Shown: in pieces, positions 10,418 through 25,214 of the stretch
How positions within the stretch are numbered: the first letter of the stretch is position 1
Layout of the letters: the number at the start of each line of letters is the position of its first letter
IMG/VR virus record: IMGVR_UViG_3300047163_000146
Coordinates: 1-25,491 of that record
Length of the DNA: 25,491 nucleotides
Strand: one strand, 5' to 3'
Source of the DNA: a virus
The notes under the pieces: generated by a model
The model's input: only the letters and a program-made list of their open reading frames with translations
The model's database searches: none
Told to the model about the DNA's origin: nothing
Translations under genes and position numbers: made by a program

Positions 10418-10726
10418 TTATTTTTTCCATTTAGCTGCATTGGCAGCAAAATTGGCTTCCTTGCCCAGAGTGCCGCCAGCATCTTTCTTTTCTTCAGCAT
10501 ATTCATGCACAGTCTTGCCAGCCGCCTTCGCCTTCGCGGTAAACTTGCCTTTATTCTCCGGCTTAATATGAATACTTCCGCCACGCGCCTTTTTATCTAG
10601 CCTGTGCTTAGGCTTTTCGCCATGAACCTTGCCGCCTTTTTTCTTTTTCTGTGGCGGTTTTTTATCGGCATCAATACCTTCATCGTCAGGCTCACTGCTA
10701 CCGATATCATCAGGTTCATCGGCCAT
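10418..10726 (-). CDS. Basic KGG/RLDK-motif phage protein with 'KPENKGKFTA' domain
   Basis: The protein has 102 residues from the ATG at 10726, directly after the previous stop (TAACATG). A TTG at 10747 is possible but lies inside the upstream gene. The first 20 residues are acidic, then comes a highly basic stretch 'KKKKGGKVHGEKPKHRLDKK' followed by ARGG. Residues about 45-102 contain 'IHIKPENKGKFTAKAKAAGK' and end 'EANFAANAAKWKK'. I recall this last pattern (…KP.N.GKFTA..K..GKS… ANFA.NA.KW) in small proteins of many unrelated phages, without known function. The same KGG/RLDK cassette is in the next gene upstream and in the protein at 20452-21060. A DNA-binding or internal virion role is a guess from charge. 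Confidence 0.75.
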   Translation of the reverse strand: MADEPDDIGSSEPDDEGIDADKKPPQKKKKGGKVHGEKPKHRLDKKARGGSIHIKPENKGKFTAKAKAAGKTVHEYAEEKKDAGGTLGKEANFAANAAKWKK

Positions 10727-10727
10727 G

Positions 10728-11024
10728 TTAATCGTTCTGTTTGCCAATCTTTTGCTTTTCGCTAAAACCGCTGCGCATTTTCGTTGGAGCTGCGCCAGAA
10801 AGAGGATGGCTGGGCGAAGTTACCTTGCCACCGCGCGCACGCTTATCAAGACGATGTTTTGCAGCGCCGCCATGAGCGTGATGAGCTTTTTTTACTTTGC
10901 CACCTTTTTTTAGCGGTTCATCAGGAGTTTCGCCATCTTCACCGGTATCAATTTTTTTCTTATCTTCTTTTTCTTCATGATAATCATGTTCTTCTACTTT
11001 TCCGCCCTTTTTGCACGCTTTCAT
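10728..11024 (-). CDS. Small charged KGG/RLDK-motif phage protein
   Basis: The protein has 98 residues and is strongly charged. It starts MKACKKGGKVEEHDYHEEKE, continues through an acidic stretch (DTGEDGETPDEP), then repeats 'LKKGGKVKKAHHAHGGAAKH' followed by RLDKRARGGKV. The C-terminus (GAAPTKMRSGFSEKQKIGKQ) is basic. The start is well set: AAGGAG lies 7 bases before the ATG. It sits directly upstream of the related basic protein at 10418-10726. I do not know a function for this family; the motifs recur in four proteins of this window. Confidence 0.72.
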   Translation of the reverse strand: MKACKKGGKVEEHDYHEEKEDKKKIDTGEDGETPDEPLKKGGKVKKAHHAHGGAAKHRLDKRARGGKVTSPSHPLSGAAPTKMRSGFSEKQKIGKQND

Positions 11025-11041
11025 CGCAATTCTCCTTAAGA

Positions 11042-11070
11042 ATTATAGACTAAATAATATGCTATTTTAA
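11042..11070 (-). promoter_or_regulatory. Weak promoter candidate
   Basis: Reading the minus strand, TTAAAA (11070-11065), 17 bases, then a perfect TATAAT (11047-11042). The predicted start of transcription would fall on the Shine-Dalgarno sequence of the gene at 10728-11024, which argues against use for that gene. The gap is AT-rich, so a chance match is likely. Confidence 0.25.
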
Positions 11071-11095
11071 CACTGTTTCCCGCTATTTGCATTAT

Positions 11096-11593
11096 CTAAT
11101 TTATGCCGCCAAAGCTTGGCATATTAGCCATTTTTCCCACCCAACCCGCACTTGCACTGCGATTGACAGTTAAAACAGGGATGCCATGGGCCTGCAAATG
11201 GTTATTAACTTCCTCGAAAAATTTCGGCTCCATTTCTGAGGTTTTTATCTTTCCCAAAGCTACCATCTGATGGGCTATTCTGGCCGATTTAGCCAGCGTA
11301 TCGGGGTAGGTTATTATCACAGTAGGAGTCTTGCCGGACTGCATAATCTTTAGCGGAACATGGGGGAGGCAGGAAAGCGACAAAAATATTTCACCGTCCT
11401 TATTTTCTTCCGGACCGATAGAAACATGCGTCATAACAAATTCAGAATTTTCCAGCACTTCAGGAAATTTTAATTGTATATACAATGACCCAATTTCGCA
11501 GTCTGCCGGAATACGACAGTACCCCTCATATTCCACCTCATTGTCGGATTGAGAGGAAGGCCTGGCGCTGTGAATTGATGCAAATGCCTTCAT
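11096..11593 (-). CDS. Unknown protein coupled to the Tad2-like gene
   Basis: The protein has 165 residues and I do not recognise its family. The first 100 residues look beta-rich, with alternating hydrophobic residues (EIGSLYIQLKF, EIFLSLSCLPHVPLKIM, PTVIITY). Residues 105-145 look helical (TLAKSARIAHQMVALGKIKT), and the C-terminus is a flexible Ser/Gly/Asn tail. There is no signal peptide or membrane segment. The ATG overlaps the stop of the upstream Tad2-like gene by 4 bases (ATGA), so the two are probably made together and may act together. It could equally be a small virion protein, given its neighbours. Confidence 0.7.
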   Translation of the reverse strand: MKAFASIHSARPSSQSDNEVEYEGYCRIPADCEIGSLYIQLKFPEVLENSEFVMTHVSIGPEENKDGEIFLSLSCLPHVPLKIMQSGKTPTVIITYPDTLAKSARIAHQMVALGKIKTSEMEPKFFEEVNNHLQAHGIPVLTVNRSASAGWVGKMANMPSFGGIN

Positions 11594-11784
11594 AATACCA
11601 CTTCCCAGTCTTCTGCAAAAATATCATTATGCATAGGATGGTAATGCTGCGAGGCATGATCCCGTGATTGCCAGAGCAAATCTCCATTGCCAAAGCTTAC
11701 GCACGCATGATTTTCGTGCCATATTTTTCGCCTGACACTTTCGCCTTCATTTTTCGCTATAACCATAGATTCAAGAAAGTTCAT
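11590..11784 (-). CDS. Tad2 / DUF2829-like small protein (candidate anti-Thoeris)
   Basis: The protein has 64 residues. The N-terminal MNFLESMVIAKNEGESVRRK followed by IW and the C-terminal 'NDIFAEDWEVV' match the two ends of the DUF2829 (MW1434-like, Tad2) pattern as I know it: F-x-E-A-L-x(3)-K-x-G-x-x-V-x-R-x-x-W near the start and D-x-x-A-x-D-W-E-V at the end. Tad2 proteins are phage-coded and sequester the signalling nucleotide of the Thoeris defence. This one is shorter than the members I recall (about 70-90 residues), with a compact middle. It sits 3 bases after a virion gene and overlaps the next gene by 4 bases. Family match by eye is moderate; activity is inference. Confidence 0.55.
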   Translation of the reverse strand: MNFLESMVIAKNEGESVRRKIWHENHACVSFGNGDLLWQSRDHASQHYHPMHNDIFAEDWEVVL

Positions 11785-11787
11785 TGT

Positions 11788-12213
11788 TCAGCTCAAGGTC
11801 AAAATTGAGGCGGTTGTGATAGACGGAGTTACCCCGCTTGACACGGCGATGGTCGGAGATATGGAGCCTGCAAAGAATAAAAGTCCGTTACCGCTGGAAA
11901 CTGCTCCAATTCCAGCATAGGCCTCTGTTTCGCTTCCGCCGGTAGCAGCAGGAAAGTTGATATTGGCCACTGGAATAGCTGTGTTGGTGCTGACAGTCCA
12001 TCCGCCCGCTGAGCGCGCCACTGCTTGCCGGGAATAGCTTACATACTGAGCTTCGCTTGTGCTCTGAGTCCCCGAAGTAGGATCTGCTGTATGCAGGGAA
12101 ATATAAAGATTGGTAATGGGAGCCGCAGCATTTTGCGCCACGCCTGCTATTGCAGTTCCTTCAAATATCAAATTAAGTATATCATTAGCAAAAGTAGTGT
12201 TAGTGCCGGTCAT
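11788..12213 (-). CDS. Conserved phage virion/tail-associated protein
   Basis: The protein has 141 residues. The layout matches a very common unnamed phage family I recall: 'NDILNLIFEGTAIAGVAQNA' at 10-29, then 'LYISLHTADPTSGTQSTSEA' (36-55), 'YVSYSRQAVARSAGGWTVS' (57-75), 'IPVANINFPAAT' and a beta-rich C-terminus ending in Thr/Ser repeats. These proteins are found near tail fibre genes and are thought to be structural, perhaps fibre-associated. The upstream neighbour (12224-12574) and this gene often occur together in such phages, from memory. The start has an AGGTG-like site about 9 bases upstream. Exact virion location is unknown. Confidence 0.78.
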   Translation of the reverse strand: MTGTNTTFANDILNLIFEGTAIAGVAQNAAAPITNLYISLHTADPTSGTQSTSEAQYVSYSRQAVARSAGGWTVSTNTAIPVANINFPAATGGSETEAYAGIGAVSSGNGLLFFAGSISPTIAVSSGVTPSITTASILTLS

Positions 12214-12223
12214 TTATTAGCAC

Positions 12224-12574
12224 CTATGTTGGTCCGCCAGCACTGCCAGCCTGGATGGAAGTCATTTTTACAGAGTCGGCTCCGGAAGTGCCAATAGAAT
12301 TTACAAAAATTCTTGATGCAGACACAGGGAAAGTAAAGTTATCATTCTGGCTGGTCGTTGCGTTTACCAAATCACTATTATCATGCGGGAACCATGTGCA
12401 GGCTACAGCGCCAATATTGGTAATGTCATCGCCGGTATGCTGTATGGTGTAGTTAATATTCCCCGTTCCTACGACGCAAAACAAGCTGACATTAAATGGG
12501 CTGTGGAAGATGTCATAAACAACAGGAATACTGGCTCCTGAAGCAAGACTCATGCTTGTAATCTGAGGGCGCAT
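12224..12574 (-). CDS. Small conserved phage structural protein
   Basis: The protein has 116 residues. It shows 'ASIPVVYDIFHSPFNVSLFC' (residues 13-32), 'INYTIQHTGDD' and a C-terminal 'SRIFVNSIGTSGADSVKMTS' pattern. I recall a widespread unnamed phage family with the same order (…PLD…SPFNV…CVV.G…YTV.YT.DD…I.L.V..GTG.V.M.V.QAG), encoded beside capsid and fibre genes. It is predicted to be a small beta-sandwich. Residues 85-108 form the last strands and the C-terminus is Gly/Ala-rich. A promoter-like sequence lies upstream at 12605-12633, so this could be the first gene of a transcript running to lower coordinates. Confidence 0.75.
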   Translation of the reverse strand: MRPQITSMSLASGASIPVVYDIFHSPFNVSLFCVVGTGNINYTIQHTGDDITNIGAVACTWFPHDNSDLVNATTSQNDNFTFPVSASRIFVNSIGTSGADSVKMTSIQAGSAGGPT

Positions 12575-12604
12575 TGCTTGTCTCTTTTAATAAATTATTT
12601 ATCA

Positions 12605-12633
12605 ATAATACAGCATTATATAAAGAATGTCCA
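12605..12633 (-). promoter_or_regulatory. Sigma-70-type promoter candidate
   Basis: On the minus strand TGGACA (12633-12628) is followed after exactly 17 bases by TATTAT (12610-12605). Each box differs from the consensus at one position. It lies in the 100-base gap upstream of the gene at 12224-12574, leaving a leader of about 25 bases. This is the best promoter match I found in the window. Confidence 0.45.
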
Positions 12634-12675
12634 ATATCACTATCCTGCTCAGTAAAGACATTTCAAACCCTTAAA

Positions 12676-12915
12676 TTAAGCCCATACGCCCAGCACCAGC
12701 GGGCCATTAATATCATCTTCCGCCACGCCGGTTGGAAGGGTTATCACGCTGCCGTCGGTTATCCGTATAGCCACATACCAAAGGTTGTTTGCCTGCATGG
12801 GGCCGATAACATTCTGATAGGCGAGCTGTATGAAACCGCCCTGTACGGTGGTGAGCATCCCTGCCAGCAGGTCATAGCTTGCAGCGCATAGGTAGTAATC
12901 CGTTCCATTTATCAT
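12676..12915 (-). CDS. Small protein coupled to the lectin-like fibre
   Basis: The protein has 79 residues from the ATG at 12915, which overlaps the stop of the fibre gene (ATGA). A GTG at 12981 gives a longer frame, but that part lies inside the fibre gene. The sequence is mainly beta-type (YYLCAASYDLLAGMLTTVQG, NNLWYVAIRITDGSVITLP) and has a Thr/Val-rich core with no membrane segment. I do not recognise the family. Its coupling to the fibre gene suggests a fibre cap, chaperone or small virion protein. Confidence 0.65.
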   Translation of the reverse strand: MINGTDYYLCAASYDLLAGMLTTVQGGFIQLAYQNVIGPMQANNLWYVAIRITDGSVITLPTGVAEDDINGPLVLGVWA

Positions 12916-14258
12916 GTCGTTATACTCGCTAATTGTGAGGGGGTTAGCTGATAATTCCAGTAGCTGGCCTTGCGAATCCACATATTGGGCAGAGTCTGGT
13001 AATGCATTGCGCCGGAAGCGATATTGAACTGCACTATAGTAGGGGTGGCTGATACTGTAGAAGAGCCTGTATAATTAGTGGCGTTTACCGCAAAATTAAT
13101 GACCTGCCCCACTGCCCATGAAGAAGCCATTTTATAGACTTTTCCGGTGACAACGGATAAGGGTGATGAACCGCTGCTTGTAGTGACCCCCGCTACCGCA
13201 ACCCCTGCCGCCGATATAGATGGATTCTGGCCTGCCGGGATACTAAACTCGCCGCCGTCGATAAAATCCGTTCCTGTGCTTGAACCGACAAAGCAGGCGG
13301 TGCTGGGAAAGGCATTGACAGTGCCTTCCATGATCCATTCGGTCTGAAGCGTGCCTTTGGTGGTATTATAGAAAGACAGGTTTGTCGTATAAAGGCTATC
13401 CGCCGCCCGCGTGACGGTGCTGCCGGTCGTAGGCAGGTAAGAACTTGCAGAGGGGGCGGCCTCGCATTGCACGCCGAAAACATAGACACCGGTTCCCGTG
13501 CCACCGGAATAAACCGCAAGCCGCGCCGCACTGGTAACATTGTTGACAAGCCCTAGTGCCACCACAGCGGCAGCGCTTGCGTTGGCCGTAGCCGTCAGCG
13601 AGCAGCGATACCAGCCATTGGAAAGCGCCTGTATGCTTTGCGCAACGTTTGTGCTTCCCGTACCCCCTACCGTGCCGTTGGCGAGGTTGAAGTTGGCATA
13701 CTGCGTAGAAGCAAAGCCGCTCACGCCATAGGTAAGCTGGACTACGCTTTGCCCATTAGCTTTTGCAAAACAGGATAAAGTATAGGTAGTGCCCGAAGCA
13801 AAGCTCGTGCCCGGCGTATACTGGGTGTAATGGCGATCGTTTGCGGCGTTATCGATAAGCGAAGTGGCGTCCATCAGGCCATCAGGTGAAATCGTTGCCG
13901 CCGTGGTTGCGCTCGCAGAGTTGAACGACCAGTAAGTGCCGCTGTCCGGAATGGAATGCTCCACCAGATTAGTGGTTGCATTGGGTTCCATCAGCAGGCC
14001 ATTGAGCACCAGCGTGGACGGGTTATAATCAAAGCGCGGTACATTATTTGCCGCACTTACCAACACTCCCGCAGAATTATAATAAGTGGCATTGGAAGCA
14101 CGGGAATACGTCAAAGAGGGGGGAATGGAACTTAACAAAAAATTATAATTAATGACAGGTGAATATGCACTTACCCCCAAAGAGCCGCTTACGCCCTTGG
14201 GGACACTGGACAATCCCTTGTACCCCGAAACGCCTTTTAGGGGTTGCGAGACTGCCAT
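12912..14258 (-). CDS. Head- or tail-fibre protein with lectin-like domains
   Basis: The protein has 448 residues. The N-terminal 30 residues (PLKGVSGYKGLSSVPKGVSG) form a short repeated Gly/Ser/Lys motif. Residues 45-100 contain 'LTYSRASNATYYNSAGVLVS' and 'GLLMEPNATTNLV', a signature I recall from phage head-spike and fibre proteins. Residues about 105-275 look like a carbohydrate-binding beta-sandwich (FCFAK-like 'LSCFAKANGQSV', 'NGWYRCSLTATAN', 'VYVFGVQCEAAP'). The last 150 residues, ending 'YWNYQLTPSQLASIT', look like a LamG/concanavalin-type end. It probably binds host-surface sugars. It lies between a virion protein gene and the small coupled gene at 12676-12915. Confidence 0.82.
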   Translation of the reverse strand: MAVSQPLKGVSGYKGLSSVPKGVSGSLGVSAYSPVINYNFLLSSIPPSLTYSRASNATYYNSAGVLVSAANNVPRFDYNPSTLVLNGLLMEPNATTNLVEHSIPDSGTYWSFNSASATTAATISPDGLMDATSLIDNAANDRHYTQYTPGTSFASGTTYTLSCFAKANGQSVVQLTYGVSGFASTQYANFNLANGTVGGTGSTNVAQSIQALSNGWYRCSLTATANASAAAVVALGLVNNVTSAARLAVYSGGTGTGVYVFGVQCEAAPSASSYLPTTGSTVTRAADSLYTTNLSFYNTTKGTLQTEWIMEGTVNAFPSTACFVGSSTGTDFIDGGEFSIPAGQNPSISAAGVAVAGVTTSSGSSPLSVVTGKVYKMASSWAVGQVINFAVNATNYTGSSTVSATPTIVQFNIASGAMHYQTLPNMWIRKASYWNYQLTPSQLASITT

Positions 14259-14269
14259 TGCATTTTACC

Positions 14270-15487
14270 TTATACCGGAGTTGTGCCGTAGAGGTACTGC
14301 GGAGTCTGCGGCGATGCTTTTCCAGAATTGCTAAACGGAAGCGTTTGATAAAAGGCAAGCCTGTTAATCCCCTGCGAAGAAGTCTGAAGCGCATAGGTTC
14401 CGCGCGGATCGCCAGTTGACGTAGTGGCGGGACTGGTCTGGTCGCCCGCGGTCCAGCCTACGTTTGAAATAATAAAGCTTCCGGCATAGAAAATAGAAAG
14501 ATTTTCCCATAAATCCGAGCGGAACATGAAGCCAAACAAGTCTTGCGTAGTCACAGAATAAGTATGGGTGCTATCCACAAAGCCGGGAGTTACCGAATTA
14601 ATAATCTTATAGCATTTCTTTGATTTACCCGTTGTCGCGCCAGATGCAATGGTGATTATTTCACTCTGCGTCTGGCCGTAAATGTCAGCACCTCTTACCG
14701 TGAAAGATCCGCCCGTTGCTGCCACCGTCCCCGTCACGGCAATGCCACGCTCCAAAGCCTGCGTTTCATCCCAGATAAGGGCAGCGCCACCTGCAACATA
14801 AGGAGCGTAAAAAGTGGGGCGGATAGCAGGAGTAGCGCCATTAAGATTGGCCCATCCAGGCAATCCAGAACAGATACGAGCGGTCGTAGAATTGCTGGCA
14901 AGCGGAGAGTCTGCAATGGTAATAGTCGTGGGGGTCGGCGTGCCGGTAACATAAGTAAACAAATGAGTGGTGCCAGCAGCGTTACCCACATTGGTTATAA
15001 TAATCGGCTGGCCATTGCGGTAAATAGAGCTATTGGCGACAGTTACCGTCTTATTGGCAGAAGTAACAGTCGGAGTCTCAATTCCCAGATCCATGGCAAG
15101 CGCACCCGTCTGCACAAGACCGGTCGCAAAATTGCGGTAAGGAACATTCAACGTTATGCCGACCGAAGCATTGGTGGCAAGCGTCATTGCCGTGCCGTTA
15201 ATAGCGGGCTGCGGACTCGCCACATTCGCCGGACCGCCTGCAGTGCCAACTGTAGATGGAATGCAATTCACCGAAAGAATTTCAGGCGTATTAAAAAATG
15301 TCGGTATTACTCCGGGATTATCGAGCGCATCTTTAGGCATGGGATAATAGCGAACGTCGGGAAATCCATCAGCCTGATAAGTAATATCAGGGCCAGCAAG
15401 AGGGTCTGTATTTTGCGGCGCACCTGATAAAGCGTCCAGCATATTGCCAGCGCTAATCATCGGTCCTGCATTTACTGTGGCTGACAT
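14270..15487 (-). CDS. Phage virion protein, probable capsid accessory
   Basis: The protein has 405 residues. It has 'MLDALSGAPQNTDPLAGPDI' (16-35), 'YYPMPKDALDNPGVIPTFFN' (47-66), a beta-rich middle, 'FTVRGADIYGQTQSEIITIA' (about 263-282) and a C-terminal 'TSTGDPRGTYALQTSSQGI' stretch. I recall an unnamed family of this layout next to the major capsid gene in phages of Alphaproteobacteria. The start has a good ribosome binding site (AGGA, 8 bases upstream). It follows the major capsid gene by 33 bases, fitting a decoration or head-fibre role, which is inference. There is no membrane segment or enzyme motif. Confidence 0.8.
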   Translation of the reverse strand: MSATVNAGPMISAGNMLDALSGAPQNTDPLAGPDITYQADGFPDVRYYPMPKDALDNPGVIPTFFNTPEILSVNCIPSTVGTAGGPANVASPQPAINGTAMTLATNASVGITLNVPYRNFATGLVQTGALAMDLGIETPTVTSANKTVTVANSSIYRNGQPIIITNVGNAAGTTHLFTYVTGTPTPTTITIADSPLASNSTTARICSGLPGWANLNGATPAIRPTFYAPYVAGGAALIWDETQALERGIAVTGTVAATGGSFTVRGADIYGQTQSEIITIASGATTGKSKKCYKIINSVTPGFVDSTHTYSVTTQDLFGFMFRSDLWENLSIFYAGSFIISNVGWTAGDQTSPATTSTGDPRGTYALQTSSQGINRLAFYQTLPFSNSGKASPQTPQYLYGTTPV

Positions 15488-15520
15488 GGGCTATTTCCTA
15501 ATTTTAATATACACAAAACC

Positions 15521-16429
15521 TTAGAGAAGCGGCGCAGTGCCCCAGAGTGCGCGCCAGTCATTGTACCCGAATGAATAACGCTGATAACCTTTCACCAGAA
15601 CGTTGTCAGTCGTGTCGTCCGTCCAGATGGAAGTTTCAAACGGAATGCGCTCAAGATAAATGAGCCCCTTAATATTGGAGAGTACAAACCATGCGTAATT
15701 GGACGTAAAGAAGTCCATCACCTCATAGCCTTCGGGAAGCTGACCGGTGGCAATAAGTGCATTCACATCGTTATCTGCCGTACCGGGGCGAAGCTCTGTT
15801 TTGGTGAGGCGCGATGCCACATATTCCAAAGAAGGCGGCACCAGAAGCTTACGGCCACGCGCAAAGATTTTGAGGTTAGCGTTGTTACGGAAAGCGCGAA
15901 TGGCAATAAGGGCATTATAAAGCGATGTCTCGTTAAGATCTACATCAGTCGTAGGCTGATTGGCAACCGTGCCGCCGTCAACTGGATGAGCCGTATTGAT
16001 GAGCGATACGCCATCTCCGCCAATCTGAGTCTGATAGGTGGTCGCCGTATTAAACAGGTTGGCGCCAAGGATTTCCTGACCCTGCTGGAATGATTCCAGA
16101 AGACCAAGATTCATCGGGTCAAAGGCAGTTTTGTAAAGGTTGTCATCAATAGATTTGCGCGTCAGTGAGTAACCAAGCGCAATTTCCAGATGTTCCTGCG
16201 TATAAACATAACGCTGACCGGAATTGTTGTCAAAGGTGGTTGCCTGACCCTCTGCTTTGATGTACGGCAGACCGACATAGCGCATACTGACCGAGCGCTC
16301 GACCGCCATCTGCGATGTGCCTTTGCTGTAGACTTTCGACCACTGCATCGGAATCTGTTCATACATGCCCGGAAGTTCCATGACGCCCGGCAGGAGGAGA
16401 TCTTTAATATAGGCAAGTGATATGGCCAT
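15521..16429 (-). CDS. Major capsid protein (HK97 fold)
   Basis: The protein has 302 residues, the usual size for this type. It has an N-terminal 'KDLLLPGVMELPGMYEQIP', then 'YIKAEGQATTFDNNSGQRYV', 'LEIALGYSLTRKSIDDNLYK' (about 81-100) and 'GDGVSLINTAHPVDGGTVAN' (about 138-157). 'LKIFARGRKLLVPPSLEYVA' (about 186-205) and a C-terminal beta-rich region with 'YSFGYNDWRALWGTAPL' follow. This order matches the Mu gpT-like/HK97-fold capsid proteins I know. It would form the icosahedral shell around the scaffold. It sits immediately after the gene for a capsid accessory protein and before another virion protein. No separate protease gene was seen in the window, so cleavage of the capsid protein is not indicated. 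Confidence 0.92.
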   Translation of the reverse strand: MAISLAYIKDLLLPGVMELPGMYEQIPMQWSKVYSKGTSQMAVERSVSMRYVGLPYIKAEGQATTFDNNSGQRYVYTQEHLEIALGYSLTRKSIDDNLYKTAFDPMNLGLLESFQQGQEILGANLFNTATTYQTQIGGDGVSLINTAHPVDGGTVANQPTTDVDLNETSLYNALIAIRAFRNNANLKIFARGRKLLVPPSLEYVASRLTKTELRPGTADNDVNALIATGQLPEGYEVMDFFTSNYAWFVLSNIKGLIYLERIPFETSIWTDDTTDNVLVKGYQRYSFGYNDWRALWGTAPLL

Positions 16430-16444
16430 AGGTCTCTATTCCCC

Positions 16445-17059
16445 TTATACGCCGGTTGCGTTAGTTGCCGACCAAGCAGTAGGATTGGCAATAACTTCGA
16501 TAGTGTTGTTAGCCTGTGTATTGTCATAACCAAGGTTCCCAATGGGGCCGAGGTAATTGTTATAACCGATACCCAGAATGCGGAACGGATAAGTGCTGGC
16601 TGTAGAAACAGTAGCAAAATCTACATAGGCCGTGCTGAGTCCGGTCGTTGTATTGGGAGCCGCATTGGCTGCAAAGTTAATATTCAGGCCAACGTTTGCC
16701 TGAACCACCGGGCCGCCATCGCCTGACTGGACAGCGAACACTGCCTGTGGATCGGTAATAACTGAAGCAAAAACACTGTTTGCAAGGGCAGTGCCAGGAG
16801 CAAGCCATGCGAGTGTGCGAATTTTTTTCTGCTGGACGGTGTCGTAATACTCGACCCAGTCAATAACGCCAAAAACGGGGTTATCCGTGGTAAGCGCGCG
16901 GTCAATAAAACCAGTATTGAGAAGTTTTACTACATCGCCCTTGCCAAAGGAATTGGCATTGGTGCTGGCAATTTCAGCGATCGTAGTCTGATAAGTAGGG
17001 GCACCGCTATAATAGTTGCGAACGAAGCTAAAGCCGTTCGGAGCGAAAGTATTAGCCAT
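16445..17059 (-). CDS. Capsid accessory/decoration-like protein
   Basis: The protein has 204 residues. It begins MANTFAPNGFSFVRNYYSGA, then 'SFGKGDVVKLLNTGFIDRAL', 'NPVFGVIDWVEYY', 'TDPQAVFAVQSGDG' (about 102-115), 'QANVGLNINFA' and 'YPFRILGIGYNNYLG' (156-170). I recall an unnamed capsid-gene neighbour of this order (…PFGF.P…GD.V…GV..GV…DP.A.FEVQ…D.G.N…LRILG…) in many tailed phages. It lies directly upstream of the major capsid gene, 15 bases apart, behind a leader with a promoter-like sequence and two hairpins. A role in stabilising the head is inferred from context. Confidence 0.8.
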   Translation of the reverse strand: MANTFAPNGFSFVRNYYSGAPTYQTTIAEIASTNANSFGKGDVVKLLNTGFIDRALTTDNPVFGVIDWVEYYDTVQQKKIRTLAWLAPGTALANSVFASVITDPQAVFAVQSGDGGPVVQANVGLNINFAANAAPNTTTGLSTAYVDFATVSTASTYPFRILGIGYNNYLGPIGNLGYDNTQANNTIEVIANPTAWSATNATGV

Positions 17060-17061
17060 AT

Positions 17062-17079
17062 GAACAAACTCTTTTGTTC
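17062..17079 (-). promoter_or_regulatory. Hairpin directly before the capsid accessory start
   Basis: On the minus strand GAACAAA-AGAG-TTTGTTC forms a perfect 7-bp stem with a 4-base loop, ending 2 bases before the ATG of the capsid accessory gene. The loop AGAG is the nearest purine-rich, ribosome-binding-like sequence. It may set translation of this gene; the stem is AT-rich and therefore weak. Confidence 0.45.
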
Positions 17080-17125
17080 TATGAGTAACACATCCGGCGC
17101 GGAGGGTTGGTCTCGTTCAATTTAC

Positions 17126-17144
17126 CACTTGCGGCGCGCAAGTG
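17126..17144. promoter_or_regulatory. GC-rich leader hairpin upstream of the capsid genes
   Basis: CACTTGCG-GCG-CGCAAGTG is a perfect 8-bp inverted repeat with a 3-base loop. No T-run follows on the minus strand, so it is unlikely to end transcription. If the promoter at 17161-17188 is used, it lies near the 5' end of the capsid messenger, where it could protect it from decay. It could also be a binding site for a dimeric regulator. Confidence 0.5.
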
Positions 17145-17160
17145 AACTTCATTAATGGTT

Positions 17161-17188
17161 ATAATAACATTTTATGCCATTAAGGCAA
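17161..17188 (-). promoter_or_regulatory. Promoter candidate for the capsid genes
   Basis: On the minus strand TTGCCT (17188-17183) is followed after 16 bases by TATTAT (17166-17161). The match is 4 of 6 and 5 of 6 to the sigma-70 boxes. It lies in the largest gap of the window, upstream of the capsid accessory and major capsid genes, leaving a leader of about 95 bases. An overlapping TATAAC is an alternative -10 box. Confidence 0.35.
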
Positions 17189-17203
17189 AGATTTTTTTAT
17201 GGT

Positions 17204-17311
17204 CTATTTATTAGGCGGGATGTGCAGAGGTGTATAGCGGAACCATAGCGCATCCCATTTATCGTCTTCGGCGCATCCTGATAGCAAAAGAATCAGGATG
17301 ACTATCCTCAT
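17204..17311 (-). CDS. Tiny lipoprotein, possible lysis accessory
   Basis: The protein has 35 residues from the ATG at 17311, which overlaps the stop of the upstream lipoprotein gene (ATGA). Longer starts up to 17431 lie inside that gene. MRIVILILLLSGC is a compact lipoprotein signal with an L-S-G-C lipobox; cleavage would leave a 23-residue lipid-anchored peptide (CAEDDKWDALWFRYTPLHIP plus NK). It has the size and Pro-containing end of a very short outer-membrane spanin-like peptide. Its translation is probably coupled to the upstream gene. It could also be an entry-exclusion lipoprotein; the coding call itself rests on the lipobox and the overlap. Confidence 0.55.
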   Translation of the reverse strand: MRIVILILLLSGCAEDDKWDALWFRYTPLHIPPNK

Positions 17312-17520
17312 TTTGGAGGTGCCCATCCGCAATGCGATATCCCATAAACATCGACTATCTTTAATTTGCGCGCATTCATATCGCTCAAAAACTCGGAAGA
17401 ATCTAAATAAACAGGGCTGGCGACTAAACAAAAATCATTATTATTGCTTTGTTTCGTGCAGCCACTTATTTGCATCGCCATCAGGCTCAGACATAATCTT
17501 ATCACGAATTGTTTTTGCAT
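17308..17520 (-). CDS. Outer-membrane spanin-like lipoprotein (Rz1-like)
   Basis: The protein has 70 residues from the ATG at 17520, with AAGGG 9 bases upstream. MQKQFVIRLCLSLMAMQISG then Cys is a lipoprotein signal with lipobox I-S-G-C. The mature part has 'DFCLVASPVYLDSSEFLSDM' and ends 'YGISHCGWAPPK'; two further cysteines may form a disulfide. I recall a similar 'CL..P.Y.S…C' pattern in short phage lysis lipoproteins. The gene starts inside the reading frame of the membrane protein gene at 17441-17665, in another frame, overlapping by 80 bases. That nested layout is typical of two-component spanins (Rz/Rz1), which fuse inner and outer membranes at lysis. Confidence 0.65.
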   Translation of the reverse strand: MQKQFVIRLCLSLMAMQISGCTKQSNNNDFCLVASPVYLDSSEFLSDMNARKLKIVDVYGISHCGWAPPK

Positions 17521-17665
17521 CACAAGCTGCCCTTAAAGACTGTTCGCTATCAGAATTCTGCTGTTTTAATTCACCCATTTCCTGCATCTGATCATCATGA
17601 GTCTTTTGCTTCTCTTTTACAAAAAAACTAATTACCCATTCGATAACAGATGCAAGAAATGACAT
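17441..17665 (-). CDS. Inner-membrane spanin-like protein (Rz-like)
   Basis: The protein has 74 residues. An N-terminal hydrophobic segment (SFLASVIEWVISFFV, residues 2-16) is followed by a charged, helical, coiled-coil-like stretch (KEKQKTHDDQMQEMGELKQQ onward). This is the layout of an i-spanin: membrane anchor plus periplasmic coiled coil. It is shorter than lambda Rz. The 3' third overlaps the lipoprotein gene at 17308-17520 in another frame, and the upstream Ala-rich gene ends 4 bases before its ATG. No strong ribosome binding site is visible, so coupling to the upstream gene is likely. A holin is a weaker alternative. Confidence 0.6.
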   Translation of the reverse strand: MSFLASVIEWVISFFVKEKQKTHDDQMQEMGELKQQNSDSEQSLRAACDAKTIRDKIMSEPDGDANKWLHETKQ

Positions 17666-17669
17666 AAAA

Positions 17670-18038
17670 TTAAGATGCAGCCGTTACGGAAGCAGCGGTG
17701 CCATTGACAGCCGCCTGCGCGGCTGAAATCTTGGCAGACACCATCGCAGATAGCGTTACAGCCGCTTCCTGCGATAGCGAAACTCCCTGTGAAGCAAGGA
17801 CTGGCAAAAGAGATTCGGCACCAGCTACAATGCCTGCAATAGGATCCCCCCCAGTCGTGATTGCCGTTGTGATTCCAGTCAGCAACGCAGATCCATCGGC
17901 AAGTAAATCTTTTTCAAACACAGGCGAAAGTTCGTCAATAATACTTTTTGCATTTGACACAACAACAGCGGCAGATGTGCCAAACCAGTTTAGAAAACCT
18001 GCCCAGCCGTTCTTAAAGAAAATAAAGATAGCGTTCAT
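17670..18038 (-). CDS. Ala-rich small phage protein in the lysis region
   Basis: The protein has 122 residues from the ATG at 18038, chosen over the ATG at 18050 because GGAG lies 6 bases before it. The N-terminus (MNAIFIFFKNGWAGFLNWFG) is hydrophobic and aromatic, then 'TSAAVVVSNAKSIIDELSPV'. Residues 55-122 are Ala/Gly/Thr/Ser-rich with weakly hydrophobic helices (LLTGITTAITTGGDPIAGIV). I do not recognise the family. It precedes the spanin-like pair and could be a holin-like or virion protein, but no clear pair of membrane helices is present, so I leave the function open. Confidence 0.65.
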   Translation of the reverse strand: MNAIFIFFKNGWAGFLNWFGTSAAVVVSNAKSIIDELSPVFEKDLLADGSALLTGITTAITTGGDPIAGIVAGAESLLPVLASQGVSLSQEAAVTLSAMVSAKISAAQAAVNGTAASVTAAS

Positions 18039-18062
18039 TTTAATCTCCATTAAATAGTTAAT

Positions 18063-18656
18063 TTATTCAGGCACGGACACAGCAGCAGGATTGCCGCCTT
18101 GTAGTTTTTCCTCAAAGCCACGTTCAAGCACAAATCTTTTTCCGGGAATATCCTTATGTTCCGACGTCATTCCCATTTCAGCCATCTTGTCCTGGACAAG
18201 AGCGCCAGCCTTGCGACCTTCTTCTTTTTTAGCCGCATCGCTCATAGTTTTGGGCCGATACATGAGAACCAGACCTTCATATTCAAATATGTCGCCCGTG
18301 ACAAAAGAGGCAAAATGCTCTGCAAATCCATCAGAATTGCTGGGAAGAAAACGCCACCCGGCGCGCCATACTTCCGCGCTATGCTTTTTATCGGCTTTAT
18401 TTAAAACGCTGGAGCGCTTCCATTCAATGGCAATGCCATCGGGGATAAGCTCTTTAGGGACATATAAAAAGTCCTTAGCCTCATCCACTTCACGTTTAAT
18501 TCCAGAAAAATCCGCAAGTGAAATAGCCTTACGCGGCACAGAAGCTGTGCTTATTTCTGCCTCCGGAAGCGGTTTGCCGCGATGGACTGCCAGCGCATCA
18601 GGCGCTTGTGTTGCTTGCTGACCCCAAGGCTTGGCTGCTGTCGGAATATCTACCAT
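18063..18656 (-). CDS. Conserved phage protein between scaffold and capsid genes
   Basis: The protein has 197 residues. The centre has 'IAIEWKRSSVLNKADKKHSA' (74-93), 'VWRAGWRFLPSNSDGFAEHF', then 'EYEGLVLMYRPKTMSDAAKK' (about 124-143) and a helical, charged C-terminal part. I recall an unnamed phage family with the same order (Y.W.R..VLN..D…GW.PVP…HPG.F…GLVLM.RP…) that sits next to scaffold and capsid genes, so a head-assembly role is plausible. The start overlaps the previous stop by 1 base (TAATG), with GGAG 9 bases before it. There is no membrane segment or enzyme motif. Confidence 0.75.
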   Translation of the reverse strand: MVDIPTAAKPWGQQATQAPDALAVHRGKPLPEAEISTASVPRKAISLADFSGIKREVDEAKDFLYVPKELIPDGIAIEWKRSSVLNKADKKHSAEVWRAGWRFLPSNSDGFAEHFASFVTGDIFEYEGLVLMYRPKTMSDAAKKEEGRKAGALVQDKMAEMGMTSEHKDIPGKRFVLERGFEEKLQGGNPAAVSVPE

Positions 18657-19684
18657 TATATTTTCTCCCCGTTAGCGCGTTTATCTTTAATTTCTAACTG
18701 ACGAGCTGCATAGCGCTTGTACGCCTCTCCATCAGAAAGCTTGAACATTGAATTTTTGCCGTAAATCTTAATAGCCTGTTCACGCATATTGCCGTCAAGC
18801 TTAAAGGTTCTTCGCCCTGTGCGCTGTTCCTCGGCAGCATTACCGCCGCGCGCACCAGCTCCGGTCGAATCATGGCTGGCAGGGGCTGCCATCGAAGTCC
18901 CGGAGGCGGTTTTACGCACGGATGCAACAACGGTGGAAGAAGAATTTTCATCGTCATATCCAGCTTCAGCTAAAGCTGAATTTATGCGGCGAAAATACTC
19001 GGAACTATCCGCAGGAACCCCATCTTCAATAGCATCTTCATGGGCTGCCACTGCAATGCGCTTATATTTTTTATCCGTATTAAATTTAGGATGGGAGTCG
19101 ACCCATTCACGCGCTTTTGGACTCATGTCATCATTGGCAGTCTTAACTTGCGGCTTATTTTTCTCTTTTTCTTTCCAGTTGTCAAAATGGGCCTTGGCTC
19201 CCTCTGCGCCTTTTTGCTTATAGACAGCTTCAGCCAGCTTCTTTTGCAGTGCAATTTGCTCTTTAGCGGGTTTGCCCGTATCAATGGCCTCTTCAAGCGC
19301 GCGTTCCGCATTTTCCACTTCAGCTTTGGCGGTTTCTACGCGATTTAAAATAGCAGCTTCCTGCGCCACCACTTTTTCGCTTTCAGCTTTTGTCAGCGTG
19401 TCCCTCGTGGCATTAACCTGAGCGCGGGCAGTATCACGCTCCCGTTCTGCCGCTAAGCGACGCTCTTTTTCGTCTGCCAATGCCCTTTCGGCAGATTCCT
19501 GATTTTTGCGCAATTCTGCAATCGGATCATCCTTGGGCTTTCTGGCAGTATTCGCGCCAATAGGCGTACCTTCCGGCTCACCGGCATGTTCAATAACAAC
19601 ATCTTCAGGCTTAACCTGTGGCGATGACATTATGACAGTATTGTTTTCAGCTAATTTAGACTCGTCTTTGGGAACTTCTACCAT
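18656..19684 (-). CDS. Probable scaffolding protein
   Basis: The protein has 342 residues. Residues about 52-178 form a long, heptad-rich coiled coil full of Ala, Glu, Lys and Arg (ELRKNQESAERALADEKERR onward). The first 50 residues are acidic and flexible. A globular-looking segment follows (MSPKAREWVDSHPKFNTDKK, near 190-210), and the C-terminus is basic (KDKRANGEKI) after a Ser/Thr/Ala/Gly-rich linker. Coiled-coil, highly charged proteins placed between portal and major capsid genes are usually scaffolds, which bind the capsid protein through a basic C-terminal end. It follows the GroES-like gene by 4 bases. The call rests on composition and position. Confidence 0.72.
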   Translation of the reverse strand: MVEVPKDESKLAENNTVIMSSPQVKPEDVVIEHAGEPEGTPIGANTARKPKDDPIAELRKNQESAERALADEKERRLAAERERDTARAQVNATRDTLTKAESEKVVAQEAAILNRVETAKAEVENAERALEEAIDTGKPAKEQIALQKKLAEAVYKQKGAEGAKAHFDNWKEKEKNKPQVKTANDDMSPKAREWVDSHPKFNTDKKYKRIAVAAHEDAIEDGVPADSSEYFRRINSALAEAGYDDENSSSTVVASVRKTASGTSMAAPASHDSTGAGARGGNAAEEQRTGRRTFKLDGNMREQAIKIYGKNSMFKLSDGEAYKRYAARQLEIKDKRANGEKI

Positions 19685-19688
19685 TTTC

Positions 19689-20129
19689 TTACCATACTAA
19701 AGTTGGATCTTCGATGACCGCGTCGATATGAATGTCCTGTAGAAATCTGCAATGAAGACCGGCAATCTCACGAGCAGAGCCATGCACCGGCCTATAGGTA
19801 ATCCACTCAAGCGGCTCAGCCTTAAATCCTGCAAAGCTAGTGCTTGCATCGTCTTTAAATGCAGCAGCGCCAATTTTTAACACTAAGCCAGCCGCTCCTT
19901 GAAATTTATCCTCTTCCATGGACGCATCGGTACGATAAAGACCGCCTTCAGTCTTTTCAGGCTGACGATAAGTTGCAACCAGCATTTTATCAGCCGATAA
20001 GCGGACACTATCCAGATATGGAGATATAAAATCAAGAATAGCCTTATGTGGATTGGCTGAGTATTCATTGGTTTTATGAATATTCTTCCCATAATTATCA
20101 CGCTCACGTCGATTGGCAAAGTCAGGCAT
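19689..20129 (-). CDS. GroES-like co-chaperonin
   Basis: The protein has 146 residues. After a polar N-terminal extension of about 45 residues it has a GroES-type order: 'ADKMLVATYRQPEKTEGGLY' (46-65), 'EDKFQGAAGLVLKIGAAAFK' (73-92), 'PLEWITYRP' (106-114), and the end 'FLQDIHIDAVIEDPTLVW' (129-146). This matches the fold signature of GroES (…D.V.V…E.KT.GGI…G.VV.VG.G…GD.V.Y…I…D.I.A.I). The segment after GGLY (65-75) is the likely mobile loop that contacts GroEL. Phages such as T4 (gp31) carry their own version to fold the capsid protein, and its place in the head operon fits this. The ATG overlaps the upstream gene by 8 bases. Confidence 0.8.
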   Translation of the reverse strand: MPDFANRRERDNYGKNIHKTNEYSANPHKAILDFISPYLDSVRLSADKMLVATYRQPEKTEGGLYRTDASMEEDKFQGAAGLVLKIGAAAFKDDASTSFAGFKAEPLEWITYRPVHGSAREIAGLHCRFLQDIHIDAVIEDPTLVW

Positions 20130-20310
20130 CGTTTAATTTCCTTTCAATTTCCTGAGACCATGTAAGAACTTCTTTTAACGCCATAAGAAATCCGCGCTGA
20201 ATTCCGTTTTCATGCGGATCGCCATTACGCATATTGACAAAATTGTCACCACGCTCAAGAGCCTCTTCCTTGATGCGGTTTTCCAGAATATCTCTAAATT
20301 TAGAACTCAT
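20122..20310 (-). CDS. Small helical phage protein
   Basis: The protein has 62 residues, charged and probably all-helical, with 'RGDNFVNMRNGDPHENGIQR' (residues 20-39) and 'GFLMALKEVLTWSQEIERKL' (40-59). I do not recognise a named family, but short proteins of this type sit near portal genes in several phages, from memory. The ATG at 20310 has GGAG 4 bases upstream. That site lies in the 3' arm of a hairpin (20313-20328), so translation may be controlled. The end overlaps the GroES-like gene by 8 bases. Confidence 0.65.
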   Translation of the reverse strand: MSSKFRDILENRIKEEALERGDNFVNMRNGDPHENGIQRGFLMALKEVLTWSQEIERKLNDA

Positions 20311-20312
20311 TC

Positions 20313-20328
20313 ATCTCCATTCGGAGAT
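20313..20328 (-). promoter_or_regulatory. Hairpin holding the ribosome binding site
   Basis: On the minus strand ATCTCC-GAAT-GGAGAT is a perfect 6-bp hairpin. Its 3' arm contains GGAG, the only ribosome binding site for the ATG at 20310. A closed stem would hide that site, so translation of this gene, and perhaps of the GroES-like gene behind it, may depend on the hairpin opening. Confidence 0.5.
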
Positions 20329-20335
20329 ATCAAAA

Positions 20336-20358
20336 TTCATCAACATTGCATTGATGAA
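20336..20358. other. Inverted repeat in the leader
   Basis: TTCATCAA-CATTGCA-TTGATGAA is a perfect 8-bp inverted repeat with a 7-base loop, 8 bases away from the ribosome-site hairpin. It is followed on the minus strand by a short TTTT, too short for a convincing terminator. It may pair with the neighbouring hairpin region or be a protein-binding palindrome. Confidence 0.45.
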
Positions 20359-20451
20359 ACCGGGCCAGCCGGGCGATTATCGCTTTAATATCTCTACTTT
20401 ATGCTTTGCAGTATGCAGTTCGTAGAAAAATCTTAGCCCTTTACATTAATA

Positions 20452-21060
20452 TTAAGGAGCAGCCTCAGCATTGTTACGTTTTTCCAGCCTTCCCTTACCG
20501 CCGCCAGCGCCAAATTGCATTTTAGAGACCTTACCGCCCTTGGCGCGCATCGGCATACCAGCACCCGGAGGCAATGGAGTGCCTGGCCCCATCGGAGGCG
20601 GACCGCCTGCACCCGGAGGCGGCATTGCAGGGCGCGGAGCTGGCATCGGAGCAGCCATAGCAGGCGCAGGGGCTGCAATTGGACCGCCAGAAGCAGGCTG
20701 TGGACCATGGCCTCCCACAATAACATTAATCTGAGTCTTGCCCTTAGCTTTCACCTTGCCGCCCTTGGCAAATTTTTCTTTGCCAGCAGGGAATGGCTGC
20801 GTTGTATTGGCGTCACCCTTAGCAGTCTGACGGCTGATTTTATCAAGACGCTTTTTGGGCATTCCGCCATGGACAAAGCCACCTTCAGCCTTCTTTTCCT
20901 TCAAATCCTTTTTTTTTACCATTTTTTTGATGAGCTTTTTGTCTTCTGCCTCATCCTTATGAACGGCGCCACCTTTTGCATAGGTGCCAATTTTAGTGGA
21001 ATATCCAGCCTGCTTCAAAATGCGATGTGCATTTTCCCGCTTATGTTCATCATGTTTCAT
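20452..21060 (-). CDS. KGG-motif Lys/Gly/Pro-rich phage protein
   Basis: The protein has 202 residues from the ATG at 21060, which overlaps the upstream stop (ATGA) and has AAGG 9 bases before it; a TTG at 21066 is less likely. Basic, His-rich residues open it, then 'YAKGGAVHKDEAEDKKLIKK' and 'EGGFVHGGMPKKRLDKISR' in the first half, 'FAKGGKVKAKGKTQINVIVG' near residue 100, a Pro/Ala/Gly/Met linker (about 118-175), and 'RAKGGKVSKMQFGAGGGKGR' with 'LEKRNN' at the end. Four KGG-type motifs repeat, and two are followed by R-L-(D/E)-K. The same cassette is in the genes at 10418-11024. No known function; nucleic-acid contact is possible from the charge. It lies in the head block, two genes after the portal. 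Confidence 0.75.
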   Translation of the reverse strand: MKHDEHKRENAHRILKQAGYSTKIGTYAKGGAVHKDEAEDKKLIKKMVKKKDLKEKKAEGGFVHGGMPKKRLDKISRQTAKGDANTTQPFPAGKEKFAKGGKVKAKGKTQINVIVGGHGPQPASGGPIAAPAPAMAAPMPAPRPAMPPPGAGGPPPMGPGTPLPPGAGMPMRAKGGKVSKMQFGAGGGKGRLEKRNNAEAAP

Positions 21061-21488
21061 AAGCAAAGCCTTTTAATAATAGTTTTCATTTTCAAAGCAT
21101 ATGACTCGCATTCAGAAACAAGTTCCTGATTGTCTTCTTTAGATCCATAGTGCGCCAGAAGAACAAGAATCGAATTGGCAATATGAATTTTTTCCCTGAT
21201 TTTATCTTCTTTATGAGAGCGCAGACTGTCCACTGTCTGTAACGGCGGTAAATCCGCAATATCAAGAAAGGAAAAAGAAAGATTGAGCGCCCAATTTAAA
21301 AAATCACCGCTGGAAACTGCCTCTGCAACAGCAGGGGGCAAAATATAAGATACAGCCTCAGAAGAAACGGTCACTGAGGCCGAAGATTGAGGTTCAGAAA
21401 GGCCCTGTATCTCTTGCTCAAGATTATTAGCAGCAACATGAGCAGATGATAGTGCATCGTCTTCTGAATTGAGATTTTCATTTTTCAT
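21057..21488 (-). CDS. Unknown acidic phage protein
   Basis: The protein has 143 residues and I do not recognise it. The first 45 residues are acidic, Ser/Asn/Gln-rich and probably disordered. Residues 48-85 are hydrophobic and helical (SYILPPAVAEAVSSGDFLNW, LNLSFSFLDIADLPPL). The C-terminal part is charged and helical (SHKEDKIREKIHIANSILVL). It follows the portal gene by 17 bases and overlaps the KGG-motif gene by 4 bases (ATGA), so it belongs to the same transcript. No strong ribosome binding site is visible. It may be a small head-assembly factor. Confidence 0.65.
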   Translation of the reverse strand: MKNENLNSEDDALSSAHVAANNLEQEIQGLSEPQSSASVTVSSEAVSYILPPAVAEAVSSGDFLNWALNLSFSFLDIADLPPLQTVDSLRSHKEDKIREKIHIANSILVLLAHYGSKEDNQELVSECESYALKMKTIIKRLCL

Positions 21489-24752: not shown

Positions 24753-24758
24753 TATAAA

Positions 24759-25214
24759 ATGCTTGGCTTCACCGCAATATCGGAAGATCCCATTGATGCT
24801 CTGAATGCGAACATTCAGCAATCTATAGCTACATGGATGGCATCAGCTTCATTTTCTGCCGCAGGAAAGCTTACAGAAAAAACCATTGCAACATGGTCCG
24901 GACACTCTGCATTCTCTGCGCAAGGAAAGGCACTGGAAAAAGGCGTGGCAGCGTGGACAGCGTCCGGAACATTTAATCCCAAGGGGGCAATCGCAAGAAA
25001 GTCTCAAGCCACATGGCTTGCCCATACAACTTTTTTAAGTAAAAGCCCCTCACTCAGGGCAAGCAAAGTAAACTGGAAGTCTGGCATCGTCTTTCAGGCT
25101 GTCGGATCTTCCAAAATGGGGAAAATAGGCTATCCATTCCCCGCTCAACATCTTCTTGGCGATCCATTTCCTAAAAAAATACGTCCACTTTACCAAAGAA
25201 TGCGAATTCAATAA
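24759..25214 (+). CDS. Protein of five 20-residue repeats
   Basis: The protein has 151 residues. The first 22 residues (MLGFTAISEDPIDALNANIQ) resemble the start of a small phage structural family. Residues 23-122 are five tandem 20-residue units with a Trp at position 4 and a Phe at position 10, and often a Gly at 14. The C-terminus is basic and Pro-rich (YPFPAQHLLGDPFPKKIRPL). It follows the fibre-type gene by 6 bases on the same strand, so both are probably made together and may sit on the same virion structure. No ribosome binding site is clear. It ends 7 bases inside the end of the opposing gene at 25208. Confidence 0.72.
   Translation: MLGFTAISEDPIDALNANIQQSIATWMASASFSAAGKLTEKTIATWSGHSAFSAQGKALEKGVAAWTASGTFNPKGAIARKSQATWLAHTTFLSKSPSLRASKVNWKSGIVFQAVGSSKMGKIGYPFPAQHLLGDPFPKKIRPLYQRMRIQ
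24825..25124 (+). repeat. Five tandem 60-bp (20-residue) repeats
   Basis: The units read IATWMASASFSAAGKLTEKT, IATWSGHSAFSAQGKALEKG, VAAWTASGTFNPKGAIARKS, QATWLAHTTFLSKSPSLRAS and a last KVNWKSGIVFQAVGSSKMGK. Trp at position 4 and Phe at position 10 hold in all five. The first two are closest and the last two most diverged, suggesting growth by duplication. Confidence 0.7.

Follow-up and report, generated by a model that had tools for sequence, protein, structure and literature searches.

Short GG boxes and a helical module link three small lysine-rich proteins of a tailed-phage fragment to candidate head-interior cargo proteins

What might small lysine-rich proteins do that are encoded at separate positions among the late head genes of a tailed phage? 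The question is raised by a 25,491-base tailed-phage fragment (IMG/VR virus record IMGVR_UViG_3300047163_000146; the whole stretch is called the window below), in which an earlier note described a KGG box followed by R-L-(D/E)-K in three proteins, here named gA, gB, and gC, and proposed that they condense DNA in the head or belong to an internal complex. Our best explanation, to which as a whole we give about an even chance, is that the three act inside the head as small accessory proteins, largely unfolded and bearing docking boxes. The observed base for it consists of boxes and a module held in common, gene position, placement of boxes at C termini and between domains, absence of boxes from the shell-gene classes examined, and predicted disorder. 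The proteins and their parts are as follows.

10418..10747, minus strand: gA, 109 residues (102 from the ATG at 10726), with one double-GG unit and a predicted C-terminal three-helix module
10577..10642, minus strand: gA double-GG unit KKGGKVHGEKPKHRLDKKARGG, residues 36-57
10421..10576, minus strand: gA C-terminal module SIHIKPENKGKFT...NFAANAAKWKK, residues 58-109, common to residues 370-424 of crAss001 gp45
10728..11024, minus strand: gB, 98 residues, one base from the gA ATG, with three GG boxes and a disordered-protein composition
10821..10910, minus strand: gB double-GG unit KKGGKVKKAHHAHGGAAKHRLDKRARGGKV, residues 39-68 (9.9 bits for the stretch by the profile described below)
20452..21066, minus strand: gC, 204 residues, a short member of a portal-to-GroES family of KGG arrays
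20908..20982, minus strand: gC first box and predicted helix YAKGGAVHKDEAEDKKLIKKMVKKK, residues 29-53 (family consensus KKGGxAxHxDxAEDKALIKKMVK)
20839..20892, minus strand: gC second box with RLDK KAEGGFVHGGMPKKRLDK, residues 59-76 (alignment and shuffle test)
20716..20775, minus strand: gC third box and GKTxINVIV block, residues 98-117, conserved in the family
20551..20715, minus strand: gC Pro/Ala/Met-rich stretch, residues 118-172
20479..20550, minus strand: gC C-terminal box and GAGGGKGRLEK signature, residues 173-196 (family comparison)
72..1376, minus strand: 434-residue protein with two or three broader GG boxes (shuffle tests; membership uncertain)

The three open reading frames (ORFs) of the earlier note are present where it placed them, with ATG starts at 10726 (gA) and 21060 (gC); longer TTG starts at 10747 and 21066 are also open. 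The boxes were tested against composition by shuffling each protein 2000 times, and the strict pattern of that note, [KRAE]GG[KAFS][VI], was applied to 30 window genes. gA, gB, and gC contain 2, 3, and 4 matches, counts that none of the 2000 shuffles reached in any of them, and only these three stand out among the 30 genes. R(L/M)(D/E)K was reached by 6, 17, and 0 of the 2000 shuffles, respectively. The double unit Rx(D/G)(R/K)x(A/P)R(0-2)GG occurs in gA (0/2000 shuffles) and gB (1/2000) and not in gC. As a hidden Markov model check for mere Lys/Gly bias, a double-box profile (GGKVxGExxxxRxD(R/K)x(A/P)RxxGG) was built from 34 gC-family proteins, with the window gC and its L006 relative left out. 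It placed gA (20.1 bits, E value 3.5e-5) and gB (15.3 bits, E 0.0011) above every other window ORF and above the best of 900 shuffles (8.0 bits), whereas the window gC scored -2.7 bits. The RLDK adjoining the second GG in gA and gB and the C-terminal GAG(G/S)GxGRLEK of the gC family are two different motifs. Because gC has single boxes, with an RLDK that lacks a second GG, and because its GRLEK is a separate signature, the KGG-plus-RLDK unit once ascribed to all three proteins holds for two of them.

KGG boxes had also been described in the 434-residue protein. With the strict pattern it has one box, which 7% of its own shuffles reach, but two broader gC-family patterns find two or three (reached by 19 and 1 of 2000 shuffles). 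It therefore probably carries boxes, of the YAKGGxT/LAGGGIA kind and without RLDK, and its membership is uncertain. Viral contigs yielded only its near-identical copy, and a PDB search gave no useful match. A 738-residue piece of a large neighboring gene has three broader boxes (0/2000 shuffles).

No named domain is present in gA, gB, or gC, as the earlier note had stated. Pfam gave no family at E ≤ 1 for these or the 434-residue protein, and none of the four matched the Pfam KGG stress-induced repeat model (which we take to be PF10685) at that threshold. NCBIfam had nothing for gA and gC and, for gB, only a match at E 0.023 with 12.8 bits against a cut-off of 750. PHROGs likewise gave no valid match: families 20603, 5333, and 25798, which match 23, 6, and 3 of 41 rows of the gA-module alignment, and families 16028, 22379, and 11180, which match 5, 4, and 2 of 26 gC-family rows, have no assigned function and do not match gA, gB, or gC themselves at E ≤ 1. 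Literature searches, with most subscription journals outside their coverage, found no phage or virion work on a KGG motif and nothing relevant for peptides of the gA module; as far as these searches reach, the motif is not in print.

The C-terminal module of gA leads to a protein of known location. In the structural model of gA, residues 61-100 form three helices with a predicted local distance difference test (pLDDT) score of 71-84, and residues 1-60 score 51-59. Compared with 177,635 PDB sequences, gA gave one match with E ≤ 1, to gp45 of the crassvirus crAss001 (E 0.011; gA 55-108 to gp45 372-424). The module has the consensus IxIKPENKGKFTxxAKxxGxxVxExA...KxANFAxNAxKW, with 104 related stretches, of which the best 80 loci were fetched. 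A 41-row module profile found gp45 in the PDB at E 3.2e-13 (residues 370-424), followed by an amidase at 0.017; judged by these searches, gp45 appears to be the only convincing solved relative of the module. A Foldseek search of BFVD with the gA model, a comparison that draws on sequence as well as structure, points the same way: of its eight matches at probability 1.00, four are crassvirus proteins labeled "Cargo protein 1 compact domain", and a PolyVal ART protein was also found (E 0.003-0.07, none below 0.001).

gp45 is cargo protein 1 of crAss001, detected in virions by mass spectrometry; its residues 425-552 bind the portal wing on the inner side of the capsid, and residues 214-245 lie in the tail barrel (PMC10172136; PDB 7qog, 7qol, and 8ckb). 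The module at 370-424 is thus immediately N-terminal to the portal-bound segment. The protein ends in ...KKAKGGKVRTKKKKGLTYG and has four boxes, including a C-terminal KAKGGKV (0.34 expected, 0/500 shuffles); the 37 other crAss001 proteins among the 38 examined have none. That a virion-borne, portal-bound protein carries both the gA module and a C-terminal KGGKV lends indirect support to the earlier idea of an internal complex of the head. gA and gp45 are both encoded among late structural genes, but they belong to different phage groups and differ in build: gA ends at the module and lacks the compact portal-binding domain (425-552), its boxes lie N-terminal to the module, and 12% of its residues are C, W, F, Y, I, L, or V.

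Module and box also occur together elsewhere. Forty-nine ORFs of at least 250 residues with the module core pattern contain 78 boxes versus 6.5 expected, a count from which only identical starts were removed. A gA relative in locus L169 (E 4.8e-8) and, read by eye, a gC member in L141 have apparent variants of the module. Large proteins of other phages that contain the module (in L009, L013, L015, and some of the loci L042-L081) end in KYGGTIKKRSLKK or GG...VDSxxLAKLIAAGADIExL.

gC belongs to a larger family with a fixed place in the late genes. Searches with gC returned two direct loci, the near-identical record described below and L006 (70% identical), and a protein of the uncultured phage MW202675 is 34% identical in alignment; viral contigs contain 277 stretches related to that MW202675 protein, the best 80 of which were fetched. 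Family members have about 200 to 860 residues and share VDSSxWTPxExLNADVKTGMRPISRRAFKxGGKV, several KxGG(R/K)(V/A/T) boxes, the KKGGxAxHxDxAEDKALIKKMVK element, GKTNINIVI, a Pro-rich stretch, and RKxGGRV...AGAGSGxGRLEK; the window gC, one of the short members, lacks the N-terminal part. With redundant loci kept in both counts, gC precedes GroES or scaffold in all 27 loci with readable order, and portal precedes gC in all 14 with portal in view. For gB, four loci were found in viral contigs, and gB-like genes come after a capsid or scaffold gene in five loci. tblastn of gA and of gC found no match in 50,697 phage records, and a bacterial genome scan with a three-row alignment yielded no relatives among 236 candidates. 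In the portal-to-GroES stretch of Pelagibacter phage HTVC027P (L004:22376-25147), about ten small, mostly lysine-rich proteins are encoded; by eye, 22376-22642 looks like a variant of the gA module, and 23232-23570 has KGG boxes. Phage DSL-LC04 likewise encodes small boxed proteins in its portal-to-GroES stretch. In the closest gC relative, the portal gene (G002:C1:8968-11082) has one internal TAA stop, either a sequencing error or a true break.

In general form the boxes read (R/K/F/Y)(K/A)xGG(K/R)(V/A/T), and gA, gB, and gC carry such boxes beyond what composition predicts. The placement of boxes was counted in other proteins as well. Box patterns were picked after inspection of the gC family and then applied elsewhere; shuffle expectations leave shared ancestry in, redundancy being reduced by k-mer filters only in the gC-family flank counts and in the counts upstream and downstream of gC; and the fetched loci, as the best 80 of larger sets, are biased to close relatives of the query. 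Over 1692 ORFs from 97 loci, in which the class labels scaffold and w197 come from gene order and profile matches, gC proteins contain 481 boxes versus 21.6 expected and unclassified ORFs 256 versus 71.7. Portal proteins gave 26 matches (2.9 expected), but 24 of them are one portal strand, MR(V/I/L)GGT(S/A), which we read as unrelated; the pattern used in the upstream and downstream, crAss001, module-ORF, charge, and tail counts drops most of these.

The boxes outside gC concentrate in large proteins encoded beside the portal gene. The 52 nonredundant ORFs of at least 250 residues between portal (or locus end) and gC, the upstream set, contain 116 boxes versus 9.5 expected from composition, and in 27 of the 52 a box lies within 45 residues of the C terminus, where shuffled tails predict 0.8 such proteins and an even spread would give 5.7 boxes. 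Downstream of gC, 40 ORFs of that size have no box (4.4 expected), and 28 ORFs upstream of portal have 5 (1.8 expected). Flanks were counted around GG with no box pattern imposed, counts at positions fixed by a pattern being circular; the enrichment of V at +3 is 5.7-fold for the gC family and 3.6-fold for the upstream set, and that of F at -3 is 6.1-fold and 2.4-fold. Nine upstream proteins were chosen and scanned with Pfam, and each has at least one box; ART-PolyVal was found in three, InPase in two, a cell wall hydrolase in one, and no family in three. In the six with a family, none of 21 boxes falls inside the best-matched stretch (about 4.6 expected by length). AL-type helix cores occur in 21 of the 27 C-terminal tails, counted without a control. 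In 12 of the 97 loci, at least two non-gC proteins end in boxed tails, a count that includes TerL of L178 and a gB-like protein of L158; the C-terminal box matches of TerL in L004 and L178 may be due to chance. A Bacteroidota-type tail common to several proteins of one phage was found in none of 24 loci. The portal-to-gC proteins of L105, L121, L123, L145, L147, and L160 show a second tail type, GG...HKALEIIHH or MKALEIIHH, that differs from GGxVxxRALMLxxR. This gathering of boxes in large proteins, some of them polyvalent, whose genes lie beside that of the portal again favors, indirectly, an internal complex.

Disorder and charge complete the description of the three proteins. All fall on the disordered side of the charge-hydropathy line, the AlphaFold2 (AF2) model of gC has a mean pLDDT of 53.8 (its helix at residues 39-49 comes from this low-confidence model), and they are thus predicted to be mostly unfolded. 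Net charges are +8 for gA, +8 for gB, and +25 for gC, with 18 acidic residues in gA and 16 in gB. In 27-residue windows around boxes the mean charge is +3.8 in the gC family and +0.18 in the portal-to-gC proteins, where 48% of windows are at or below zero.

Disorder, many short conserved motifs, and gene positions together fit docking proteins of the head interior, and the docking may take place near the portal. In such a scheme, gA, gB, and gC would be made together with the late head genes and would be built from short GG boxes and, in gA, also from the small helical module, parts that related phages place on large proteins whose probable fate is storage in the head and injection alongside the DNA. 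The boxes would act as short docking motifs that gather box-bearing cargo near the portal in the prohead, with gC as a multi-box hub and gA and gB as smaller pieces, and the boxed cargo would be released ahead of the DNA. We rate a virion location of the three proteins as somewhat probable; docking as the role of the box is tentative and may well be wrong. In an extended version that we consider rather unlikely, the boxes would belong to an unnamed loading system of tailed phages, in which a tag (R/K/F/Y)(K/A)xGGxV, often followed by a short helix and placed at C termini and between domains, marks large proteins destined for injection and directs them to the portal-proximal core of the prohead, gC, encoded between portal and GroES, serves as the collecting hub, and cargo protein 1 has the same parts.

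Several results weigh against the head-interior docking explanation. Four of the five crAss001 cargo proteins (gp46, gp47, gp49, and gp50) lack the box, so it is not a universal loading tag, and the gp45-like protein of DAC15 has two boxes, neither near the C terminus (this label and that of the DAC15 muzzle come from gene order and profile or module matches). The box and module of gp45 lie outside the cryo-electron microscopy-resolved segments named in the part of the crAss001 account used here. Boxes number zero in the scaffold, GroES, w197, and adaptor classes and one in the major capsid protein class, but these counts are not a depletion, because only 0.5 to 1.9 boxes were expected. InPase-bearing proteins of four other phages have three boxes (about 1.8 expected), or five (about 2.8 expected) when six neighbors are added; the box therefore belongs to particular phage lineages and not to polyvalent proteins as such. 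Tail amphipathicity is modest, with 7 of 22 tails in the top 10% of shuffles and 15 of 22 in the top 25%, and on this account an amphipathic tail was dropped as a defining part. A fold search of the gA model in the PDB returned nothing (best E 7.1), and no virion proteomics was found for a gC-bearing phage, in a name search that covered relatives without gC.

Other explanations must be weighed against the same data. If the basic KGG arrays bound packaged DNA around the portal, condensing it or neutralizing its charge like T4 internal or histone-like proteins, the net charges of gA, gB, and gC, the strongly basic windows of gC-family boxes, and the lysine-rich tail at the end of gp45 would be explained. 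We nevertheless consider this unlikely: charge alone requires neither F at -3 nor V at +3, both enriched in both sets, and gA and gB have many acidic residues. With a mean charge near zero around the boxes of the large proteins, the proposed condensation of DNA is weakened as a general box role, while it may still apply to the basic gC, gA, and gB themselves. Low-complexity Lys/Gly bias without function has in its favor the richness of the three proteins in K and G; the tests by shuffling, by profile, and by position speak against it, as does the recurrence of the pattern at many loci, and we regard it as highly improbable.

Two further proposals take the placement of the boxes as their starting point. 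Boxes outside Pfam domains and near the C termini of large proteins could part polyprotein domains and serve as sites where a protease of the phage or its host cleaves, at GG or behind it, as the head matures, and processing of polyvalent proteins by zincin-like peptidases has been proposed (Iyer et al. 2017, PMC5512222). A cut would waste the conservation beyond GG (V at +3 and the AL-type cores), and it would leave gC-family proteins, at about nine boxes apiece, in shreds; the boxes were linked to no protease, in work that included no systematic protease search, and literature on protease cleavage of a crAss-like virion RNA polymerase led only to work on another virus. We judge cleavage quite improbable. 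The boxes might instead be flexible spacers, linkers for domain-by-domain unfolding and threading through the portal at ejection with no binding partner, as GG, disorder, and location outside domains would allow; sequence-specific flanks, boxes at extreme C termini, where a linker is unnecessary, and whole proteins made of boxes, such as gC, speak against this, and we consider it unlikely.

The head-interior docking explanation has precedents in part. The internal proteins of T4 have an N-terminal capsid-targeting sequence that is cleaved. In both cases a short peptide would direct proteins to the head interior, and the comparison is by idea only, the T4 sequence differing in being N-terminal and cleaved. 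Polyvalent proteins (Iyer, Burroughs and Aravind 2017) resemble the present case in that boxes lie outside the domains and at the C termini of the gC-adjacent ones; they differ in that gA, gB, and gC have no effector domain (none in Pfam at E ≤ 1) and in that the InPase-bearing ones from four other phages have few or no boxes. How a phage chooses the proteins that it stores in the head and injects is known for few systems. Should the box prove to be a signal for sorting or docking, the sequences of many uncultured phages could reveal which proteins are injected, and the loading of foreign proteins into the heads of laboratory phage strains could be tried with a short peptide. Even otherwise, these families gain a first testable location from the tie between an anonymous lysine-rich protein and a crassvirus cargo protein whose structure has been studied.

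The late gene order of the window, on the minus strand, is portal, a 143-residue gene, gC, a 62-residue gene, GroES-like, probable scaffold, a 197-residue gene, capsid genes, gB, gA, and an adaptor-like gene. The principal neighbors are the following.

21506..23707, minus strand: portal protein (phrog_1216, E 2.9e-14)
19689..20129, minus strand: GroES-like co-chaperonin (phrog_3188, E 6.4e-4; 130 bits with a profile that includes this protein)
18656..19684, minus strand: charged protein, probable scaffold (position; aligns with same-position genes of 12 named phages)
15521..16429, minus strand: major head protein (phrog_371, E 7.7e-13)
9177..10376, minus strand: head-tail adaptor-like protein directly downstream of gA (Pfam SU10_adaptor, E 3.4e-4, 21.6 bits against a cut-off of 27; 267 bits with a profile that includes this protein)

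The window portal matches 18 phage records at 22-40% identity, including the uncultured spring phage MW202675, Pelagibacter phages HTVC027P and HTVC023P, Roseobacter phages CRP-901/902, and Caulobacter phage RW. A 66,105-base IMG/VR record (IMGVR_UViG_3300047496_000334, G001) contains the window stretch (51 of 51 sampled 40-mers identical), with gA, gB, and gC 99-100% identical. Its ORF listing, in which gC itself is masked by a longer ORF on the opposite strand, includes no additional small lysine-rich protein with at least two GG boxes. Both ends of the record (1-831 and 65779-66105) encode an identical low-complexity SGDYS-type repeat, which suggests that it closes into a circle through the repeat gene. 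At 49231-55942 of G001, an ORF run resembles, by eye, sugar-nucleotide genes (epimerase-, kinase-, nucleotidyl-, and aminotransferase-like) that may act in surface modification. On the plus strand of the window, a tail-fibre-like gene and its neighbor occupy 23661-25214, opposite to the late genes, and the first of the two overlaps the 5′ end of the portal ORF in its called extent.

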